Below are positions 24,583 to 56,891 of a stretch of 64,000 bases of DNA, piece by piece. The notes under the pieces were generated by a model, which was not told where the DNA came from, did not search any database, and saw nothing but the letters and a program-made list of their open reading frames with translations. The stretch spans positions 3,086,629 to 3,150,628 of the forward strand of contig OY101119.1 of assembly GCA_956465555.1 (NCBI GenBank), in the 5' to 3' direction. This DNA is from Nitzschia sp. pyKryTriq1. Its lineage: Eukaryota; Bacillariophyta; Bacillariophyceae; Bacillariales; Bacillariaceae. The stretch's first letter is position 1, and every line of letters begins with the position of its first letter. The position numbers and the translations under genes are program-made.

Positions 24583-27500
24583 TTATTTCCACTGAAACCC
24601 AATACTGTCCAGAGCCTGGATTTTTTCCTGGGTCATGCGGCCGCAGTAGATACCTTTGCCATTGTAGAATCGCCTGTACTCCTCGCGTTGGTCCTCGACC
24701 CATATGGCGAGTCGGGAATAGTCGGTGATGGGATTGGCTATTCCGCCGTTCCGATGAAACTCTTCGAGTTCGCTCCATCGTTCCATCCAGAATTTATCAT
24801 GCTCTTCTAGAGTTTCCTCGTCGGCATCAGCTCTTTTTTGGCGCTTGATGGCGCTTCTAGTGTTGGTGTTCGTGCTGCTTTCTAGAGTTTCTTCTTCAGT
24901 ATCAATTCGTTTGTGGCGCTTTCTGGTGCTAGTAGTGTCGGTGTTCGTGCTGCTGCTGGTGACGGACACATCGGGGACCTGCTGCTCGTGCGAGTCGGCA
25001 ACGGCAGCAGGCGATGCTGGTAGTAAAGCAGCAGGAGAGGACGATTCGTCTTCGTCTTCGTCGACTTCTTCTTCTTCTTCTTCCCAAATCATCCCCGCGT
25101 CATCAAGTAGTCGAAATCGTGCGTCACTCAAGCACTGGGTCTGGTGCAAAACGCGCTGCTCTTGGAGCCACTTGGCAAGGCTGGGGGTTATAGTACAAGT
25201 TTCGTCAGGAGACAAGTGATCAAACAGTTGGGCCTTGAACACGAGGAGCTCTCGGTATCGTTTCTCCCAGCATGTGCCTTCCGGGTCCAATTCTAGCCCT
25301 GCTACGTCCTCAAGCAATAGAATCTTTTCCTCGGACAAAGTATCCAACTGGTACTTTTCTCGTTCCGTCGCAATAAAAGTCTCTAGTTCCGAAGAACAAG
25401 AAGGAGGTAGCCTTGTGATCTTTCCAGCACCAAGGTTCATGTATTTCCTCACAGCGAGCAGCGCTTCAAATTGTTCTATCCAGAATTCGCTGGGGCGCTC
25501 CCAAACAAACCCGGCTTCCTCGAGCATCTGGATGCGGTTCTCGGGTAAAAGATTCTTCTTGTACGAGGCTTGTTGATCGCTGACCCAAATCCCAAGGGCC
25601 AGATTAAGTGGGTAGGGACAGGGAACGAGACAGTGGCCATGTATAGATCGAAAGGCAAGGAGCTCTTGGAATCGTTCATCGCTCCATGGGGAGCAGACGC
25701 TGTGGTCTGTGAGGGCGGGGACAACTCGTTTTTCATGATGATGATCATGATCATTGCTAGACGACGAATTCTCGTGAATGAACTTTCGTTTGTTCGCGGG
25801 CTTTGCCGTCGTCTCTCCACCACCATCAACAACAACCACCGCATGGCTACTCGAAACGTCAGCTACTGGCGCTGCTGCTGCTGCTGCTGCTACCACGACT
25901 GAGGATGAGGCTGGAAATTTCTTCTTTTGCTGCTGTGGCGCCTCATCATGATGATGATCATCTGCTGGCGACGGTGATTCTGCTGCTGCTGAAGCGGCAG
26001 TTGGGGTCATCATGATTCCTCGATCCCAAGCCTTTTCTTCTTGCTGTCCGCTTTCTTCTTGTTTTCTATTTTCGAGTCGTCCTCGTCGTAGTGCTGGTAG
26101 TGGTGGTTCGAAAGCTGCCCGTAGTTCTTGTTGTTGTTTCGCGTGAGGCAGTTCAACAACTGCCCGAGAATGTCGCATCTTGTTGATCCGGATGCTACGC
26201 AGTCTGTTCACATCCAGCGGTCCATCTCGGGTGAAATGCTTGTGAAAGTAGACCCCCTTCCCTTTCGCACCGATTTGGTAAAAATCCCAAATATGGACTG
26301 TAGGTAGTAATTTTTTCAACAAGTAGTAGGAGTGGTATTATGGTGGTGGCGGTACCAACAAGAACAGCGAAAACAACGACAATGGACGAGTGAGTGAGTA
26401 TCATCGAACAAATACCACGCAATATGGTGGTGATGGTGGTGGTGGTGGTGGTGGTGTATGGTGGTCCACCAACAGCAAGAATCCGCCAACCGTGCAGTAC
26501 TCTTACTTACGTTGCCTTTGAAACGACGAGTACTTGCTCGTCCGACTGAAATACTTTGGAAGGAAGGTCTCGGCAAAGACTTTGCGGTTGTGTATTTTGA
26601 ACGCTTTGCCATTTGGAAGCCAGGAGATGACACTTTCTACCAGTCGTCCGTCCACGACCCCTTTTTCGCGGCTACAATCTTTCAGCATTTTGTGAAGTAT
26701 AACCGGAAACAACAATCTGTGCTGCTGCTGATGATGATCATCGTCATCATCCAGTTGTTGCTGTTGACGCTCCTCCTCCTCCTCCGCGTATTGTTGTTGT
26801 TGCTGCTGTTGCGTATCTTCTCCTTCTTGTTCTTCTTGCCGCCGCTGCTGCTGAACAGCAGTGGCAAGAACAAGTCGCCGACGTTCTTGTTCCTGCGTCT
26901 TGGTATGAAAACGGACGCGATGCAGTTTTTCACAATCCAACGGTTCATCTCGGGTAAAATGCTTGCGAACGTAGGCGTCCTTTCCGGTACGATAAAAGTC
27001 CCAAAGATTGACTTGTTTGTTTGTTTATTTATTTGGAAGAAGAAGACGAAGAAAAAGAAGAACAAGTGGAGCGTGTGGGTGGTAGTAGTATAAGTGGTTG
27101 GTACCAAGAACAAGAAGCAACAAAAAGAATGGAGGAGTGAGTACAGTAGTTGTAGTAGTATATCGAAATATACCAGTAGTATGCTGCTGCTGGCGGTGAT
27201 GTTGTTTTTGTGTTCTTGTTGTTTGTACTGCTGCTGCTGCTGCTGCTGCACTGCTGTACTTACGTTGTTTTTGAAACGACCTGTACTTGCGCAGTTTGAA
27301 ATACTTTGGAAGGAAGGTCTCGGCAAAGACTTTGCGGTTGTGTATTTTGAACGCTTTGCCATTTGGAAGCCAGGAGATGACACTTTCTACCAGTCGTCCG
27401 TCCACGACCCCTTTTTCGCGGCTACAATCTTTCAGCATTTTGTGAAGTATAACCGGAAACAACAATCTGTGCTGCTGCTGATGATGATCATCATCATCAT

Positions 27501-28773
27501 CCAATTGTTGCTGTTGACGCTCCTCCTCCTCCTCCGCGTATTGTTGTTGCTGCTGCTGTTGCGCATCTTCTCCTTCTTGTTCTTCTTGCCGCCGCTGCTG
27601 CTGAACAGCAGTGGCAAGAACAAGTCGCCGACGTTCTTGTTCCTGCTTCTTGGCATGAAAACGGACGCGATGCAGTTTTTCACAATCCAACGGTTCATCT
27701 CGGGTAAAATGCTTGCGAACGTAGGCGTCCTTTCTGGTACGATCAAAGTCCCAAAGATTGACTTGTTTGTTTGTTTGTTTGTTTGTTTGTTAATTTGGAA
27801 GAAGAAGACGAAGAAAAAGACGAACAAGTGGAGCGTGTGGGTGGTAGTAGTATAAGTGGTTGGTACCAAGAATAAGAAGCAACAAAAAGAATGGAGGAGT
27901 GAGTACAGTAGTAGTAGTAGTAGTATATCGAAATATACCAGTAGTATGCTGCTGCTGGCGGTGATGTTGTTTTTGTATTCTTGTTGTTTGTACTGCTGCT
28001 GCTGCTGCACTGCTGTACTTACGTTGTTTTTGAAACGACCTGTACTTGCGCAGTTTGAAATACTTTGGAAGGAAGGTCTCGGCAAAGACTTTGCGGTTGT
28101 GTATTTGGAACGCTTTGCCATCGGGAAGCCAAGAGACGACGACATCTGCTTTTTGTTCGTCGCTGCTACTAGTAGTACTACAATCTTTCAGCATGTGATA
28201 CAGTTTAAACGGAAACAAAGAAGAAGCATCACACCACCTCCTAGTACTCGCTACGGCAGCTGCTTGTACTAATGGTGGTCGTAGCGGTGGTGATGCTGCT
28301 CGAGGACGAGCTGGTGCTGCTGCTGGTGGTGGTGGTGGTACTGGTGCTTGTGAAAGCAACAACTTTTCCCTTCTCAATACTACGAAGAAATCATCATCCT
28401 GGAATGGCGGAGGAAGAATGAAGGGGGCGGAGGAAGAAGGCGGAGGAACAACCACCGCGGCCGTGGAAAAAGACGTTCTTGTTCTTGCCAGTATATCTTG
28501 CTGATGCTGCTGCTGGAACTGCTGCTGGAACAAGAACTGATGAGGACGGTATTGTTCTCGTCTGAGGATTTTGTTGTTGTTTATGGTGTTGTTCTGTTGC
28601 TGCAGCAGCTGCAGCTGTTGCAGCCGTTGCAGCTGCTGATTCGCCATACTAGTACGATGAGTAGTACTACTCGTTGTAGCCCGCCGGAGCTGCTCCTCTT
28701 CCTGCTGCTGCTGCTGCTGCTGCTGGTGGTGCTCTTCTTGCGTTCGTTTGTTTCTCGACCACCCCATCAACAT
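24583..28773 (-). CDS. HSF with three tandem DNA-binding domains and four helicase-associated domains
   Basis: Four exons, 28773-28023, 27761-27264, 27011-26511 and 26297-24583, join through GT-AG introns of 261, 252 and 213 bp, all phase 1, giving 1154 residues without a stop. Each exon junction lies inside an HSF DNA-binding domain, after the SFQ(K/R)Q helix, and rebuilds SFQxQL(N/H)(L/I)WDF. Three complete domains result (about 187-284, 352-450, 518-620), with linkers of about 67 residues rich in Q, E and D. Exon 4 adds four helicase-associated-type repeats (about 786-850, 855-920, 926-988, 1086-1154; GFVWE and GFQWK endings) and basic NLS-like clusters (RKRHKR, IKRQKR). A nuclear transcription factor is expected. 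Exons 2 and 3 are near-identical and symmetrical, so skipping them keeps the frame. Confidence 0.85.
26550..28130 (-). repeat. Tandem duplication of about 750 bp carrying an HSF exon plus intron
   Basis: Sequence from exon 3 through intron 2 recurs with an offset of 750-759 bp as exon 2 through intron 1, and the end of exon 1 repeats the same domain half again. The two main units differ by few substitutions and by small changes in CTG and TTTG microsatellites, in the introns as well as in the exons. That points to a recent duplication or to gene conversion. The shared exon ends carry GTAAGTACAGCAG donors and AACAAG acceptors. Confidence 0.85.
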
Positions 28774-29816
28774 GATGAAGATGCTACTATAGACTTTATG
28801 TACTAACTGCGTATGCTTTATTAGGAAAACACCACAAGAGAGTTGTCGTTACGTTGTCGTTTTTGCCGCCGCCAACTTTTGGTTCCATCATCATCATGCA
28901 TTGCGATGATCATGTTTGTGCGGGAGGAGCCTTTTACTCCATTCGCTCTTCCATTAATGATTGCGCGGGAGGAGCATTTTACTCTGTTCTGTATGGTATA
29001 CCGGTACCGGTATTAGTTGATCGCTCTTTAGTGGTCGATCGATCGAGCGAGATGATGATAACACGGATAGAACTTCACATTATTTTGCGACCTCTCGATC
29101 TGCTGGACCTCGAGCGAGTACAATTTTCACAGGTTACGTAGAATAGACATTTTATCTCTTTCCAGAGAATCGTGGAGCGAAAGAGAATCGTCATGTACAG
29201 TATTATGCCACAGGTCAATTAATCCTTAAATAGTTATGGTAGACTTCCACGTAAATCTTCCTCCGCCAGTTGGGTCGTACCGGCAGGCGGTACTTGTCAG
29301 GCAGGCGGTTCCGGCAAGAAGATTTCCGGTACTTGTACCATAAGCCTGATTGCTGGCACGGTCGCGTAGCGTTATCGTGCGTTGTCGCCGGGCCGGCCAC
29401 ACGCCAATACCGGTTTGCTTGTGGTACTGTGGTAGGTTCTGCATGCATGCGATGCATGTGCGCGTGGTGGGGGTGGACCAGAATCATCGGAATTCTGGTC
29501 CGTACGTTTACGGCGCACCAGAACGGAATTCTACCGGTACTGTACCTGGTACCGTATGTAGTACGTACGCACCGGAATATTCTACCGGTACGACGACGAC
29601 TCATGTGACCACAACTATCTGCGGAATAGCTCTTGTGAAGAATATATCATGAGTACATCAATTTTCGTGAAACTTGAAAGTCTCTTTTCTTCATCCTTTG
29701 GCACATGTCGTTGCTACAGTACTGCTTTCATTCCTACTACTACTACTACCACCACTACTACTACTAGAAGTAGAAGTAGGAGTAGAGTAGAGTAGTAGTA
29801 TTTGATTCTTCCTCCC
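28774..29816. other. Divergent intergenic region (HSF / SWEET)
   Basis: No gene is supported. It should hold both promoters. A GCGGGAGGAGC-(C/A)TTTTACTC phrase is repeated (28919 and 28968), and TACCGGTACCGGTA lies near 28998. CTACTACTA and GTAGAGTAG runs precede the SWEET start. Confidence 0.45.
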
Positions 29817-30814
29817 ATGTTGTCCACATCGGAAGAAGAAGCAGAAGAATGGACGGCCAGCAGCATCTTTTTTCATTTAGTATGCCCCGCCATGGGTTGC
29901 TTGTTGGCGACGGCCATGTTTGCGGCACCGATTGCCGATCTTCGGCTCGCGTTGCTGCATCAATCCTTGGGCGAAGATTTGAATCCCCGACCGTGGGCCG
30001 TCATGACGGGGAATTGTTTGGGATGGTGTGCGTACGCGTATTATATCCATGATCCATTCATACTGGCCTCCAACATACCCGGCTTGATTCTCAGCATGTG
30101 GTTGAATGCCGGGGCTGCCAAGTTGCAATACAAACAAATGACTACTACTACTGCAAGTACTACTACAAGTACTAGTACTACTACTACAAGCAGTAGAACG
30201 GCTGATCCATCATCAGCTCTGGGACATCGACCAATACCCTTGCTCCATATCCAAAACGATCCCGAGGATTATGCTGGTGGTGATTATGATTATAATTATG
30301 ATGATGATGATTACACAAATCATAATGATATTGATGGCAATGGAGACGGTGATGCTCAACAACACCAACCACAACCACAACAACAGCAAGTATATTACAA
30401 TGTTCAGCCGCAGGCGCCGTCGCCTCCTCCTCCCATCTTTACACCTCAAGAAATATTGTGGTTACGAGTCTTGATCATGTGGAGTATCACGTTGGTATGG
30501 GTCGGCTGGATTTCTCCGTATCCATCCAACGAGTATGCGGCATCGACGATAGGATGGCTCGTCAATTTGAATTTGATCTTTTTCTATGCCGCTCCGTTGC
30601 AAACCATACAGGAGGTTTTACGCAACCAACATTCCAATTCGATCCATCGACCGTCCATGTTCATGGCGTGTGGTAATGCGACCTTTTGGTTATTGTATGG
30701 TATTGCCTTGTGGGATCCGGTCTTGATGGTACCGAATAGTATTGGATTGACATTGGCAATGTCTCAAGTATTACTCTGTATTATCTATCCCAAGAAGAAC
30801 CATCAGCAAACAGC

Positions 30815-30846
<32 letters not shown>

Positions 30847-31040
30847 GAAGAATCATACGACACGACCACCGACAGCACCAAGCTTCTTCTCCCGCAGTGG
30901 TGGTGGTGGTGGACGACAACGACGACAACGACGACATTTCCATGACCAATCTTTTTCGCTCGTCTCCTCATACTCCTCCGGATGGACTCTTTCGGGATTT
31001 GCAAATGATGCCTACTAATACGACAAATCAAAAACAATAA
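29817..31040 (+). CDS. SWEET-type sugar transporter
   Basis: A 407-residue frame from ATG 29817. The first MtN3/saliva repeat lies in residues about 15-105 (FHLVCPAMGCLLATAMFAAP, VMTGNCLGWCAYAYYIHDPF, NIPGLILSMWL). The second lies at about 215-325 (WLRVLIMWSITLVWVGW, NLIFFYAAPLQTIQEVL, NATFWLLYGIALWDP, NSIGLTLAMSQVLLCIIY). The paired PxQ/APL and N-x-P/S motifs are those of SWEETs, which carry sugars down their gradient across plasma or internal membranes as a seven-helix (3+1+3) protein. The central linker is unusually long (about 110 residues) and full of T, D, N and Q runs. The C-terminal tail is cytosolic and low in complexity. Substrate unknown. Confidence 0.8.
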
Positions 31041-45131: not shown

Positions 45132-46085
45132 TATCCTCCTCGTCAGATTGTTGATACAGGAATGGAATTATTGATAAATAAAGGAAGGATAGGCCGAATG
45201 AATAATAATGGTGGGGTGCCGGTGGGCGAAAACAAACACGATCGCCGCTCGATCGGTGAAGGAGATGAGAATTGGAGGGAGAAGTCAGTGCGGTAGGGCC
45301 CTATTATTTTACTAGCAGTATCGTCGGTAGCACGAGTTGTTCCGATTTTCCGAAATTGTGAGCGGCGCGGTCTTCCGAAGGAGGGGAGTATCGATATTTA
45401 CGGTATTTACGGCGCCAACGGAAGGCCACATGCCGACTGATCTGGGAAAATTTATTTTTCATCGGCTTGACTGCCGAGATTCGGATGTCACACCGTGTGA
45501 CACTGCCTGTTTTGTATATGCCTGAAAGAATTTGGCGCTCCAGATTCGTAAAAGCGGAATGTGGTGCAGAACGTTCAAGATTTATGTACATTCAGCAGTA
45601 CTGTATGTTCTATTCCCAACAGGGCTCTAATAAGGAAACAACCCACATGTTATTTCCCCCGAGTCAGTCGTCGTCAATCACAAAACCACCGATGGAAGAA
45701 TCGATACAAAACTCCTTTTCCCGCCAAGACCCTTACGGTGTAGGCCACTCCGCGAGAGTATGCAGGCATCTACTACTACTACCGGCACTACTTGTACTGA
45801 CGCGACGACGACTCCTCTCATCCTCGCATGCATCGCCTCTCCAGCACATGAAACCATGACATCATTCAAAAAGTATGGTCTGTCATCGATCCTTACTTGA
45901 TGCTTGGGATATGCACATCTGACATCTGACATCTGATGGCATGCTACAGTACCTGGTACCTGGTACCGGTACTACCGGTAGTACATGTCTGTCGTCGTTG
46001 CATCTTCTTGAGAGGAGGAGCAAGGGACCATCTGAATGAATGAATGAATGAATGATACCCGTACACGTACTGAACGAATCTGCTG
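45132..46085. other. Divergent intergenic region
   Basis: No gene is supported. ACCTGGTACCTGGTACCGGTA (about 45951-45971) and an AATGAATGAATG run (46034-46053) lie ahead of the SET gene. Confidence 0.45.
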
Positions 46086-47717
46086 ATGGCAAGGTTGAGA
46101 ATGGGCGATGCACCAGATGATGCTGATGCTGATGCTGAGGGTGCTGGAACATACCATTATTATTTTACAGTCGAATCCTTGGTTGCCAACAACAACAACA
46201 GCAACAAACAAAATAGTACTAGTATTTCTGTGGAAGAGCAAGAGCAAGAGCGAGAACAACCACAACATTATTCTTATTCTTATTTTGGATGCATCGCCTC
46301 TCGGGATATTCCGAAACACACCTTGATTCACACGGAACGATTTGTACTTTACGGAACCGAGATTTGGACCGCCAAGGAATGTTACGACAATGGAACACAT
46401 ACGTGTCAACAAGACGACGATGACTATTTACGAGAATACTGTGATTCCGTCAAGGAAGATGATGCCGTACGGCAACACATTTGGAATCTCCATGATCAAC
46501 GACAACATGATATTAGGAGTGGGGGAAAAGAAGAAGAAGAAGAAGAAGAAGAAAACAACAACAACAACAACAACAAGCATAAGCGTTTGATCGGAATTAT
46601 CTTTTCCAATGGATTTTGTAATACCGACATGGGCAATGAGCCATGTTTGTTTGCGACCGGACCGACCAGCCGATTCAATCATTCGTGTCGACCCAATGTG
46701 GGAATGGATTTTGCCTTTCGGCATGTTCGATTGTTCACGACGCGAGACGTATCGAAAGGACAAGAATTGTACTTGTCGTACAATGATGTCGTCTATTCGC
46801 ATTCGGCCCAGGTGAGACGAGCCTATTTGCTTCACAAGTATCGATTCGATTGTCAATGTCCAGCCTGCCGGCGCCGAAATACTTCTACTTCTACTTCTAC
46901 TGCCGATGACGACGATGATGAGGATAAGGATGATGGTGGTGAGGATGAGGAGGAGGATGAGGATGAAAAGATTCCTACCATGGAAGAAAGCGATGCTAGA
47001 CGTCAACGGATGGGCCGAATGGCACAATGGTTGGCGACCCATGTCGTCGAGGGTGTGGGTGCTTCTTTCTTGTACGATGCAGACTTTGAACGAAAAATCC
47101 AAGAGGTCAAAGCCGAAGAACCCGTCCACAAGTGTCGTCGTCGTCGTCGTCGTCGTCTGGATGATGATGATAATGATGGTGGTGGTGGTGGCAACGACGA
47201 CAATATTATTTGGAGGAGCAAGGAGGATGATAATAGTTCCAACAACGAAGACAACGACAACGACAACAACAATAAGTCTCTCCATTTGGATCGATTGTTA
47301 GAGTACATGGAAATGTTGCAAATCGAAAGTGTGGATCACGACATGTTGCAGTGCTACGAATTGGCCTACGATTTGGCCATTTCCATTTCTTTGGGGGCGT
47401 CAAAATCACTATCATCACCACCACCACCAACATCATCACCATCACCATCATCACTACCATCATCCTCGAGCAGTACGAATGTTTCCGGTACTCATAGTGC
47501 TAGCAACACCAACACCAACACTAGCAACGCCAACGCCCGAGACGACCCCATCGAGTGGGCAAAAAAGACGCTACAACTGTACGAACTTCGCAAGGGACCA
47601 AATCATACCGCTACTCAAACCTTTCGACTCAAGGTACAGTCGCATGGCATCACTACTACTACTAGTACAACAAGTACAAGTACAAGTACTACTCTGCTAT
47701 CACCAGCAGCATCATGA
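46086..47717 (+). CDS. SET-domain (SMYD-like) protein methyltransferase
   Basis: A 543-residue intronless protein. The SET domain spans about residues 60-265: it opens with YFGCIASRDIPKHTLIHTE, contains the SAM-pocket motif RFNHSCRPNV, then TTRDVSKGQELYLSYND, and closes with the post-SET cysteines FDCQCPAC. These are the features of SMYD-type and related lysine methyltransferases acting on histones or other proteins. An E/N-rich insertion sits inside the domain (about 147-165). Acidic, basic and Ser-rich runs follow, and LDRLLEYMEMLQIESVDHD plus IEWAKKTLQLYELRKGPNH at the C-terminus look helical, as in the TPR-like tail of SMYD proteins. Nuclear or cytosolic; substrate unknown. Confidence 0.8.
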   Translation: MARLRMGDAPDDADADAEGAGTYHYYFTVESLVANNNNSNKQNSTSISVEEQEQEREQPQHYSYSYFGCIASRDIPKHTLIHTERFVLYGTEIWTAKECYDNGTHTCQQDDDDYLREYCDSVKEDDAVRQHIWNLHDQRQHDIRSGGKEEEEEEEENNNNNNNKHKRLIGIIFSNGFCNTDMGNEPCLFATGPTSRFNHSCRPNVGMDFAFRHVRLFTTRDVSKGQELYLSYNDVVYSHSAQVRRAYLLHKYRFDCQCPACRRRNTSTSTSTADDDDDEDKDDGGEDEEEDEDEKIPTMEESDARRQRMGRMAQWLATHVVEGVGASFLYDADFERKIQEVKAEEPVHKCRRRRRRRLDDDDNDGGGGGNDDNIIWRSKEDDNSSNNEDNDNDNNNKSLHLDRLLEYMEMLQIESVDHDMLQCYELAYDLAISISLGASKSLSSPPPPTSSPSPSSLPSSSSSTNVSGTHSASNTNTNTSNANARDDPIEWAKKTLQLYELRKGPNHTATQTFRLKVQSHGITTTTSTTSTSTSTTLLSPAAS

Positions 47718-52060: not shown

Positions 52061-53880
52061 ATGGCAACGAAGTCGTCTTCGTCTTCGCAGCAGCGCCGAC
52101 GGGCCGAGCGAGGTCGAAGCGCCGTTCAACTCCCGCTACTTTTTCCGTCCAAACTTTTCAATATGCTGAAAGATTGCGATAAAGATGTGGCCGGAATGGG
52201 AAGTGTCGTCTCTTGGCTTCCCGACGGAAAATCGTTCAAAGTCCATGACCCCAAAGTCTTTGCCGAGAGGATTCTTCCGACGTATTTCAATCAGAGCAAG
52301 TACAAGTCGTTTCAAAGACAACGTAAGTACAAGAAATACTGTATAGCTACTGTAGCCACCAGTAGCTATAGCGACCACTAGAGAGTACAGTGGACGGATT
52401 GTTGGATCAAACACCACCAGCATATATTTCGATAAACTCACTCCATTATTGTTCCCCCACACACCACTTCTTCTTACAAATAAGTCAATCTTTGGGACTT
52501 TGATCGTATCACTACGGGCAGCCCAGCGAGCCCAGAGAATGGAGCCTACTTTCACAAGCACTTTACCCGAGATGATCCGTTGGATTGTGAAAAACTGCGT
52601 CGCGTCCGGGCCCGGAAGAAAATTCCTGCCAAGGAACGTCGGCGACTCGCCGCTGAACAAGAACAAGAAGAAGCGCAACAACAACAACAACAACAACACG
52701 CGGAGGAGCATAGTCAACATCAGGAGCAATTGGATAATCATGATCAGTATCATCATCAGCATGATGAACAACCACAAGAGGAGGCTTCTCGGGATAATTA
52801 CCATGAAGAACAAGTAATGTTCGAGGCGCCAGCCGGAGGACGTCACCATCAGCATCATCATCCTTCTTATCCCGGAGGAGACGGAACAGCAGCAGCAAGC
52901 CATCAGTACATGCTGCTGCACCAGGTGAGGCCTGATGAGCATCGGCGATTCGACGAACGTCTTGATGAAGAACGGCAGGGAAAAACAAGGGAGGCTTGCG
53001 ATCAACAGCAACAAGAATATCAGCAAGAAGAACATGGCGAACAACAAGAGGTTGATGAGGCGGCTCCAGGAGTAGGTCATCCACATCCCGGGGAAGGGTG
53101 GTTTGAGGTGCCAGGAGCAGGAGCTGGTGGTCCTCCAACTTCTGCTTACTATGATGCTGCAAGTGGGAACGGGGGCGGAATCCACCAGCAGTCCTCTATG
53201 ATGGTGAGTATTGGTATTGACATTATCTTCACTACTTCCAGCACCAGTGAGCGATTCTTACCATCTCTTCTCCGTACATTCCTCGTTTCCTTGATCGTTA
53301 CTAGCAGAACAACTCTCACCCAGGATCGTATCAACGAGGGTCGTACTACTACCACCAGCATCAGGAGGAGCATCAACATCATGGAAACAAACAGGAGCAG
53401 TATGCTGCCTTTATGCCCCCGTGGTTTTCCAACAGCTGCAGCGACAACGACGCTTCTACTACTTCATTCATCGTCAGCAGCACCACCACCAACCTTATGC
53501 TTCCAATGGATTGTTTTCAGATAGAGGAAGTGGAGGAGGGGAAGGACATGGAAGAAGCCATTCTTACTACTACTCCTAGTGGTACACTCCACCAGTACGG
53601 GCAGATGGATGCAAGAAGAACAACAACACCCGACGACAAAACGCTATATGAAGCACTATCACTAGCACTGCCACCACTTACAACGCAGGAAGAAGAGGAT
53701 GCTGATGGTATGTTTGTTTTTTACCCCGACGAGCATCTACAACAACCACAGCAACAAGAGCCCCCACCACCACCAGCACAGCACGACAGGCAAGGGTACC
53801 ACCACCAGGGGATGGTTTCTCCATCTTCAACATCTGTTGCAACGTCATCATCGGAGGATGAAATCTTTCTGCTGGGCTGA
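52061..53880 (+). CDS. Heat-shock factor family transcription factor, copy 1 of tandem pair
   Basis: Exons 52061-52322, 52485-53203 and 53308-53880 give 517 residues; introns are phase 1 (162 bp) and phase 0 (104 bp), both GT-AG. The HSF DNA-binding domain covers about residues 25-130: LLFPSKLFNMLKDC, VVSWLPDGKSFKVHDPKVFA, the recognition helix ending SFQRQ, then across the intron LNLWDFDRI and GAYFHKHFTRDDPLD. The wing loop has an insertion (TTGSPASPEN). A Q/E/H-rich region follows in place of a classical leucine-zipper trimerisation domain, then acidic and aromatic C-terminal segments that could activate transcription. Diatoms have many such HSFs; targets are mostly unknown. The third exon acceptor is TAGCAG, a NAGNAG site. 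Confidence 0.85.
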
Positions 53881-54963: not shown

Positions 54964-56891
54964 ATGCCAGGAGCGATGGTGTCCGCTTCTAATTTTTCCA
55001 TGGAAATAAAAACGGCCGGCACTGTTAATAGCGCAGCCGAGCGAGGGCGAAGTGCCGTTCAAATTCCGCTACTCTTCCCATCCCGACTCTTCGATATGCT
55101 TCAAGAATGCGACATGGATCCTGATGGAATGGGAAATATCGTTTCTTGGCTTCCCGATGGCACCGGTTTTAAAGTCCACAAACCCAAAGTGTTTGCCCAG
55201 ACGATCCTTCCGTCTCACTTCAACCAGAGCAAATACAAGTCGTTTCAAAGACAACGTAAGTACAGCAGCAGTACAAACAAGTGGTGTAAAAACTACTACA
55301 AACTACTATGTGGAGGATACAACAGGAGCACATCATCATGATCGCCGCAGAAGGACTCATCATCACTCATCACCATTTTCATTGTTTTGCTGGTGGTACT
55401 ACTACTACTACTACTTATACAGTCAATCTTTGGGACTTTGATCGTATCACGCGTACCTGTCCAGAAAAGGGAGCTTACTTTCATCCCCATTTTACGCGAG
55501 ATAAACAACCGCTCGATTATCAAAAACTGCGCCGGGTCCGTGCCATCAAAAAGGTTCCCGCCAAGGAACGCCGACGACTTTTACGACCTGAAAAGGAGGA
55601 GGAATCAGCACGGAAACAAAAAGAACAGCAACGGGAGCAGCATGCTGCTCAGAATAAGAAGCAGCAGGGGCAAGAAGAGCGTACTGATAGTAGTAGCGCA
55701 TCCGATCACACTACCAGCGGAGAGAGCCAGCATCCTGATGATCATGACTGCTCATCTTCGTCCCCGAACAGGAAGAACATGAACTATGAGGCTGCTGCTG
55801 CTGCTGCTGCTTCAAGCAGTAGCAAGAAGCACATGGTGAGTCAAGATGAGGAAAACTACTAGTTGCGTCGGCCACCACCACATCATCCGCTGACAGGAGC
55901 CTCGTCTCACCATTAGGATCATCATCGTCATCCTGTTCAGCACGACAACAACAACAACAACAAGAAGGACTCCGATGCCTTTCTTTTTCCTCATCCGGCA
56001 TTGCAGTCGAGCAGAGCTTGTTGGTCGTCCAACAAGAATGAACAAGAGTGCTGCAGCATGAACAAGAGCCTCCATACACATTCGGCCAGTAGCAGCAGCT
56101 ACGTCGACAGCATTTTTCCCATGGATTCTTCGTTTCAAATCACTGACAGGGACGAAGAAGAAGAGGATGGTCATACTACCGCCGAAGAATCGCAAGAGGG
56201 AGAGAACGACGAAAGTATTACTGCCGCTGCTGCTGCTGCCGCCGCTTCTGATTGCGACGACGACAATACCATGTGTTTGGACGATGAAGAGGTCGCAGCG
56301 TTGCTCAGCAGCAGCAGCTTGCTGACTGGTAGTCAAGACGAGTTGTTCATGCCCTTTTTCCCATTACTGGCGCAAGACGAAGAAGAAGATGCTGCTGACT
56401 GGGGTCTAGAACACCTGCCACCGCCACCACCAGATCATCATCACCAGCAGCAAACACGACGGGAAGATCCTCCTCTGGAGAAGAAGAAGCAGGGTGATGA
56501 TGATAATGACGATGATGATGATCGCGGTGGTGGTGGAGTCATCGCCATGAATAAAAATGCTTTGGCAAAGGCTCTCTGGAGCCGAATCACAAAATCCTCC
56601 TCGTTCGCTATTAATAATAATAGCAGCAGCAGCAGCAGCAGCAGCATGATCACTCAACAACCTGCTCGTCCCACGAAGAATGTCATGAGGACTCCTCCTG
56701 CTGCTGACCTGGTGGAACGTTGTTGGTTGTTGGCTACTACTACGAGTACTGCTGCCACCGCCGCCATGATGTGGGAAAGTCCTCGGGGTGGATCATGTGC
56801 TGGATACTACCGTAACGGGGGTGATGTTATTGGCTGTTGTTGTTTTTGTTGTTGTGGAGCAAGAGGAGGTGGTGGTGGTGCTGCCAAGTAG
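54964..56891 (+). CDS. Heat-shock factor family transcription factor, copy 2 of tandem pair
   Basis: Exons 54964-55255, 55423-55835 and 55917-56891 give 559 residues; introns are phase 1 (167 bp) and phase 0 (81 bp), the same plan as the gene 1.1 kb upstream. The DNA-binding domain spans about residues 35-135: LLFPSRLFDMLQECD, IVSWLPDGTGFKVHKPKVFA, SFNQ-type recognition region ending SFQRQ, then LNLWDFDRIT and GAYFHPHFTRDKQPLDYQKL. A basic-to-Q/E-rich linker and poly-A/S follow. The long third exon is acidic with VAALLSSSSLLTGSQDELFM and FFPLLAQDEEEDAADW, candidate activation segments, and ends in a Cys/Gly-rich tail. Start chosen as the ATG at 54964, with an alternative at 54976. Nuclear role inferred. 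Confidence 0.85.

Follow-up and report, generated by a model that had tools for sequence, protein, structure and literature searches.

The gene studied here lies on the minus strand of a 64,000-nucleotide (nt) stretch of the genome of the diatom Nitzschia sp. pyKryTriq1 (contig OY101119.1, positions 3,086,629 to 3,150,628; hereafter the window, whose numbering is used for all features within it). Its conceptual product combines three HSF-type DNA-binding domains with a tail of helicase-associated (HA) repeats. The gene model consists of four exons and three introns with GT-AG borders:

28023..28773, minus strand: exon 1 (751 nt), Q-rich and P-rich N terminus, then the N-terminal half of HSF domain 1; ends in phase 1
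27762..28022, minus strand: intron 1 (261 nt), GTAAGT...AACAAG
27264..27761, minus strand: exon 2 (498 nt), C-terminal half of domain 1, Q/E/D-rich linker, N-terminal half of domain 2
27012..27263, minus strand: intron 2 (252 nt), GTAAGT...AG
26511..27011, minus strand: exon 3 (501 nt), C-terminal half of domain 2, linker, N-terminal half of domain 3
26298..26510, minus strand: intron 3 (213 nt), GTAAGT...CTACAG
24583..26297, minus strand: exon 4 (1715 nt including the stop codon), C-terminal half of domain 3, low-complexity linker, HA repeats

Conceptual splicing of these exons yields 3465 nt encoding 1154 amino acids (aa), with zero internal stops. Phase 1 holds at all junctions, given the phase of the exon 1 end and the lengths of exons 2 and 3 (498 and 501 nt), and each junction rebuilds an HSF domain at the same place. 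The three junctions read SFQKQ-LNLWDF, SFQKQ-LNLWDF, and SFQRQ-LHIWDF (hyphens mark the exon borders), i.e., SFQ(K/R)Q-L(N/H)(L/I)WDF in each case. The splicing of exons 1 to 4 is predicted from homology, an intron at the same place and in the same phase (1) being present in two single-domain HSF genes of the window and in a third relative at C5:3155k. The domains of the two window relatives are as follows; neither the 52142 gene (two open frames) nor the 55075 gene gave any HA match at E 0.1.

52142..52603, plus strand: single-domain HSF with the shared phase-1 intron, nearest relative of the gene's domains in the tree
55075..55514, plus strand: second single-domain HSF of the same subfamily, with the same intron position and phase

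An earlier note on this DNA, made from the sequence alone, had proposed four phase-1 exons in a single 1154-residue frame with an HSF domain restored at every junction. Conceptual joining bears this out; the gene model is sound, its splicing predicted as above, and the architecture was correctly read.

HSFs are textbook trimeric transcription factors, with one DNA-binding domain per chain, trimerized by the HR-A/B coiled coil. The conceptual protein has three such domains:

27667..28215, minus strand: HSF domain 1, split by intron 1; SFQKQLN recognition helix; short wing
26917..27459, minus strand: HSF domain 2, split by intron 2; SFQKQLN; short wing
26194..26709, minus strand: HSF domain 3, split by intron 3; SFQRQLH; wing near normal

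When the protein was scanned with Pfam in four pieces jointly covering all 1154 residues, domains 1, 2, and 3 scored 55.5, 50.3, and 54.9 bits with PF00447 (HSF_DNA-bind), each more than twice the cutoff of 22 bits, and their E-values of 3.6e-13 to 9e-15 are beyond chance; the proposal that all three are complete is thereby upheld. A profile built from 11 domains of this genome, including the three of the window, matches HSF1 with an E-value of 4.7e-20. Behind domain 3 lie the HA repeats (bit scores from scanning repeats 1, 3, and 4 alone):

25507..25680, minus strand: HA repeat 1, PF03457, 63.6 bits
25273..25491, minus strand: HA-like repeat 2, degenerate, 15.2 bits, under the cutoff of 28.4
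25090..25269, minus strand: HA repeat 3, PF03457, 40.6 bits
24595..24798, minus strand: HA repeat 4, PF03457, 49.0 bits

Four such repeats had been claimed; three exceed the PF03457 cutoff, and the second is the degenerate one. In exon 4, a single uninterrupted frame leads from the C-terminal half of domain 3 through the HA repeats to the stop, so the HSF-HA fusion is independent of splicing. Pfam (E 0.01) found only HSF and HA in the four protein pieces, with no helicase motor. A structural model of HA repeat 1 shows three helices at modest confidence (pLDDT 74.5 from four sequences) and has no significant fold match in the PDB; by sequence, the repeat weakly matches 2kta, a "Putative helicase" (E 0.037). 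Directly before the last HA repeat, a coding 75-nt unit is present twice (window 24800-24954; 81% alike).

Comparison of the exon-intron units within the gene points to a history of the domain array. Exons 2 and 3 differ at 8 of 465 nt (457/465 match) up to positions 27297 and 26547, respectively, and are divergent beyond; past this breakpoint, exon 2 equals exon 1 (81/81 nt) and intron 2 resembles intron 1. Of 246 aligned nt, 5 are substituted between introns 1 and 2 (with a further 21 gap columns); for introns 2 and 3, the figures are 34 of 181 nt and 103 gap columns. Donors 1 and 2, like acceptors 1 and 2, are near-identical. The crossover interval is a tract shared by the three N-terminal domain halves:

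27297-27347, 28056-28106, and 26547-26597, minus strand: 51-nt tract, identical in all three N-terminal halves

The chimeric middle domain, taken with a duplicated unit of about 750 nt, points to unequal crossover within this tract, involving domain 1 and what was then the second domain. The third domain is thus apparently recent, and a two-domain gene probably came first. Judged by its 52-58% aa identity to the other C-terminal halves, that of domain 3 is the older one.

The 40.65-Mb genome holds at least 153 HSF matches when these are counted by exon (best 150 of 213 candidates scored). We assembled 52 loci of HSF or HA regions (30 top-scoring, 20 chosen mostly as apparently multiple or HA-adjacent, and 2 more) and, for the window and the first 50 of them, defined clusters as domains on the same strand with starts less than 1500 nt apart. 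The 65 domains, complete or rebuilt, make up 43 clusters, of which 16, the window gene included, are multi-domain: 13 doubles, the window triple, the four-domain C8:1705k, and the five-domain cluster C6:2200k. Seven half domains lacking a modeled partner (in L034, L044, L045, L046, and L048) were dropped before this count; L052 holds a further double with an unmodeled first-domain junction. Besides the window gene, 15 loci, L052 among them, connect at least two (two to four) domains through an uninterrupted frame, in some cases with an intron within a domain; the double at C4:2041k, with domains in different, overlapping frames, was left out of this linked count. A less biased sample is given by the 30 best-scoring hits, which correspond to 28 loci (copies on contigs C1 and C3 taken separately); 9 of these 28 are multi-domain, C4:2041k included, the score ranking favoring intron-less domains.

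Pfam searches with four of the frames recovered four HSF stretches in one of 934 residues (204.7 bits), three in one of 704 residues, and two in each of the other two. The two largest arrays are listed below.

C8:1704k-1706k (L031:2353-5154), minus strand: 934-residue frame without interruption, its four HSF domains ordered A-B-A-B; Asp takes the position of the base-reading Arg in the B domains
C6:2200k-2203k (L032:2544-5818), plus strand: three divergent HSF domains in a 704-residue frame, two more in neighboring frames; possibly one five-domain gene

In addition, a nine-member family of two-domain HSFs is spread over C5:2.99-3.24 Mb and C6:0.10-0.18 Mb (L033, L034, and L037-L041); its first and second domains are of distinct types, and six of the nine members have an intron in the first domain. 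Outside the genome, the 11-domain profile gave no confirmed HSF among 13 pattern matches in viral contigs or among 134 in bacterial and archaeal genomes.

A domain tree (65 rows, 94 columns, support given as pairs), in which numerous forks stay unresolved and the bootstrap is incompletely settled, suggests more than one origin for these arrays. One group (98/97) unites the first domains of the nine doubles and another (87/92, below the program's star) their second domains, the latter group also containing a single-domain row; the two-domain form of this family is therefore probably old and spread as a pair. Domains 1 to 3 of the window gene fall together with those of 52142 and 55075 (97/88), with 52142 being the nearest (98/89). 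In the four-domain gene, domain 1 pairs with domain 3 (100/98) and domain 2 with domain 4 (100/94), i.e., a doubled pair, and C3:857k is a local doubling (100/98). Taken together, the groupings make it seem that multi-domain HSFs arose more than once.

The domains also differ in the residue expected to read DNA. At the column of HSF1 Arg71, which we take to be the guanine-contacting residue of the recognition helix and which was located by alignment to solved HSF1, 55 of the 65 domains have Arg; the ten others have Lys (four), Gln (two), Asp (two), Ser (one), or Ala (one). All ten exceptions lie in multi-domain clusters, making up 10 of the 38 domains there versus 0 of 27 single-domain ones (Fisher p 0.0037), or, with the Lys cases removed, 6/38 versus 0/27 (p 0.037); the test counts related domains as independent, so these p values are too small, and it is the direction that matters. 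Window domains 1 and 2 are recent copies, and the divergent C6:2200k cluster supplies four of the ten. Window domains 1 and 2 have Lys at this column and a wing span of 12, the shortest of the 65 (mode 16), and domain 3 shows Arg there, with a span of 15. Since domains 1 and 2 differ from domain 3 in both recognition helix and wing, three equal DNA readers are not the best picture of the protein.

We then scanned the sequence following the domains for coiled coils with a home-made heptad score (hydrophobic residues at a/d minus half of those elsewhere; 28-residue windows with no proline and at most two glycines), reaching up to 130 residues per tail and ending where the unspliced frame meets its first stop codon. 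The scan is a weak one: bZIP controls (8 fetched loci of 29 matches) score 4.0-6.0, and 4 of the 8 beat shuffles at p<0.05. In the window gene, both linkers score 2.0, and the tail (130 residues after domain 3) has no qualifying window. Among the 49 of 65 HSF domains with at least 40 residues following, the best score is 4.0 (one domain) and the others are at most 3.0, none beating shuffles at p<0.05; the 24 single-domain HSFs in this set score at most 2.5 and are likewise without a coil by this crude scan. Loss of the coil as a mark of multi-domain HSFs was rejected, single-domain HSFs scoring equally low.

By-eye comparison of the genome-wide HSF and HA lists (best 150 of 213 and best 150 of 182 candidates scored, respectively) shows HSF and HA in one frame only in the window gene, among the matches listed. 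The earlier note knew of no HSF with such an architecture; the multi-domain part of that statement does not hold, given 15 further loci in the same genome, and the HSF-HA fusion remains unique among these matches. HA matches themselves are abundant (at least 150 in the genome). The nearest same-strand HSF/HA pairs elsewhere are 3-4 kb apart (C4:3027-3031k, L049; C7:228-232k, L050; and C6:2671-2675k, L052) and lie in separate open frames, joining by introns being possible. At L052 (C6:2671k-2675k, minus strand), the two-domain HSF is preceded, about 1.3 kb upstream, by a distinct HA-repeat frame in the same orientation; such a setting could give rise to an HSF-HA fusion. No recent donor of the HA part was found, the other genomic HA matches being 31-51% identical. 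Also present in the window are an open frame with two MtN3_slv stretches (SWEET-type sugar transporter; 29799-31040, plus strand) and another with a SET domain (46074-47717, plus strand).

The window domains belong to the same winged-helix family as canonical HSFs (human HSF1/HSF2 and yeast Hsf; PF00447; solved, e.g., 5d5u and 5hdg), and domain 3 shares their SFxRQL helix. Unlike these, the window gene has three domains, no coil by the crude scan, and an HA tail. In Phytophthora infestans, a stramenopile from a related group, a coil is present in 7 of 17 HSFs (PMC11267843), so that HSF domains without a detectable coil occur there as well; the section of that paper on coils mentions no multi-domain protein, whereas here the domains are linked in one chain. 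Phaeodactylum has 67 HSFs, 34% of its transcription factors, in an expansion that seems to be diatom specific, and HSF-PAS fusions occur in two haptophytes (PMC4827209). The family is very large in both diatoms, and no description of tandem HSF domains was found in that paper. With HA-repeat proteins (PF03457), the window gene shares the three repeats above the cutoff and the three-helical model of the first; in contrast to SF2 helicases with HA repeats, its protein has no helicase motor by Pfam, and the repeats are fused behind HSF domains. The titles and abstract openings listed from the open PMC literature yielded no HSF with more than one DNA-binding domain and no HSF-HA fusion, though either may be in print.

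We propose, with a probability of about one-half, that this is a young gene for a single-chain, multivalent HSF-type transcription factor in which avidity in cis would wholly or partly take the place of trimerization by a coiled coil. A single-domain HSF of the local LNLWDF subfamily would have gained a second domain, both with the same phase-1 intron; unequal crossover between the two would then have added the third, the frame also running on into the HA repeats. If expressed as modeled, the protein would most likely bind DNA by several HSF domains held on flexible Q/E/D-rich linkers of about 69 residues. These would divide the labor, with domain 3, which keeps the canonical Arg, reading GAA-type units and domains 1 and 2, whose helix has Lys and whose wing is shortened, showing weaker binding or an altered preference. 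Because all junctions are in phase 1, skipping exon 2 and/or exon 3 keeps the frame, and the cell could make one-, two-, and three-domain forms. The covalent "pre-trimer" suggested in the earlier note is possible and has partial support: the crude scan shows no coil after any of the three domains, but it shows none after the single-domain HSFs either, and domains 1 and 2 differ from domain 3.

Several observations weigh against a multivalent factor of this kind. Coil loss is not tied to domain number, as single-domain HSFs also lack a detectable coil, and the scan behind this comparison had only 4 of 8 bZIP controls beating shuffles. The Fisher test on the Arg column draws on related domains, and two of its ten exceptions lie in the frames beside the C6:2200k frame, perhaps in other genes. 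Ka/Ks among the window gene's own domains is 0.63-0.70, indistinguishable from 1 (p 0.15-0.47), so the gene may be drifting. This last point suits an alternative that we consider unlikely yet serious, in which unequal crossing-over makes tandem domains that are merely tolerated, as a neutral by-product or in decay, with only domain 3, or none, working. The single-domain pair 52142 versus 55075 has a Ka/Ks of 0.17, and the window domains versus 52142 give 0.38-0.44 (p 0.0008-0.011). By simple arithmetic on pairwise Ka with 55075 as the outgroup, the domain 1 branch carries about 0.19 and that of 52142 about 0.03, roughly a sixfold excess of nonsynonymous change. With constraint this low and the domain 1 branch this long, the gene is, on the sequence evidence, evolving fast, whether relaxed or adapting. 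The Lys and short wings of domains 1 and 2 fit the same alternative, as does the Ka/Ks of 0.54 in another recent doubling, C3:857k. Decay sits poorly, however, with an intact 1154-residue frame and three intact junctions, with the recurrence of multi-domain HSFs, including a family of nine that is probably old, and with the four-domain gene, whose domains 1 and 3 show a Ka/Ks of 0.08 at a Ks of about 2 (in most other within-cluster pairs, synonymous sites are saturated).

The remaining alternatives concern what the locus produces and whether it is correctly assembled. An isoform switch, in which exon skipping gives mainly a one- or two-domain protein and the three-domain form is rare, strikes us as rather improbable. 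In its favor, both middle exons are symmetrical (phase 1-1), frames of 988, 987, and 821 residues stay open if exon 2, exon 3, or both are skipped, and the first two donors and acceptors are near-identical; on the other side, the nine relatives with two domains per gene make multi-domain products plausible. We think it very unlikely that the HA repeats belong to a gene of their own, transcribed from inside exon 4 and distinct from the HSF gene. A Met-Met after the domain 3 linker could start an HA-only protein, and HA repeats are abundant in the genome, but the uninterrupted frame from domain 3 to the stop speaks for one product. Also highly improbable is an assembly artifact, which the earlier note had named as grounds for abandoning its claim, with two alleles of one exon-intron unit placed in tandem and a true gene of two domains. 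Such an error could explain the roughly 98% identity, over aligned bases, between exons 2 and 3 (as far as the crossover) and between introns 1 and 2, and near-identical stretches do exist toward the end of two contigs, C1 (about 4.19-4.68 Mb) and C3 (about 3.05-3.54 Mb), where matching HSF and HA places follow in the same order; these may be unmerged haplotypes or a large recent duplication. One 3.3-kb C1/C3 pair that we compared is 98.2% identical, with 12 mismatches (0.4%) and 11 gaps in 3281 columns. Substitution between the duplicated units of the window gene is 1.7% (exons 2/3) and 2.0% (introns 1/2), about five times that figure, which weakens the case for an artifact, although the C1/C3 copies need not be alleles. 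In addition, the breakpoints fall within homology, as recombination predicts, the window lacks any N and lies in a contig of 3.28 Mb, and even if there were an artifact, a two-domain gene would remain.

A wider reading, which we hold to be possible though doubtful, is that the genome has a class of single-chain poly-domain HSFs, with two to at least four domains, in which covalent linkage replaces coil trimerization and some domains have dropped the GAA-reading Arg for new roles (a new sequence, spacing, or domain-domain contacts). Domain number would be set by intra-domain recombination and may vary between strains, and the three-domain HA-fused gene would be a recent case. The surprise is in any event wider than one gene: HSF domains are joined in series again and again in this genome, and some of those so joined have lost the base-reading Arg. 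Among the 65 domains, that Arg is lost only in multi-domain clusters, which raises a testable question, namely, whether linkage serves for oligomerization and frees domains to change. The window gene displays a step by which HSF domain number increases, and the rule that HSFs act as trimers of single-domain chains may not hold in this alga.

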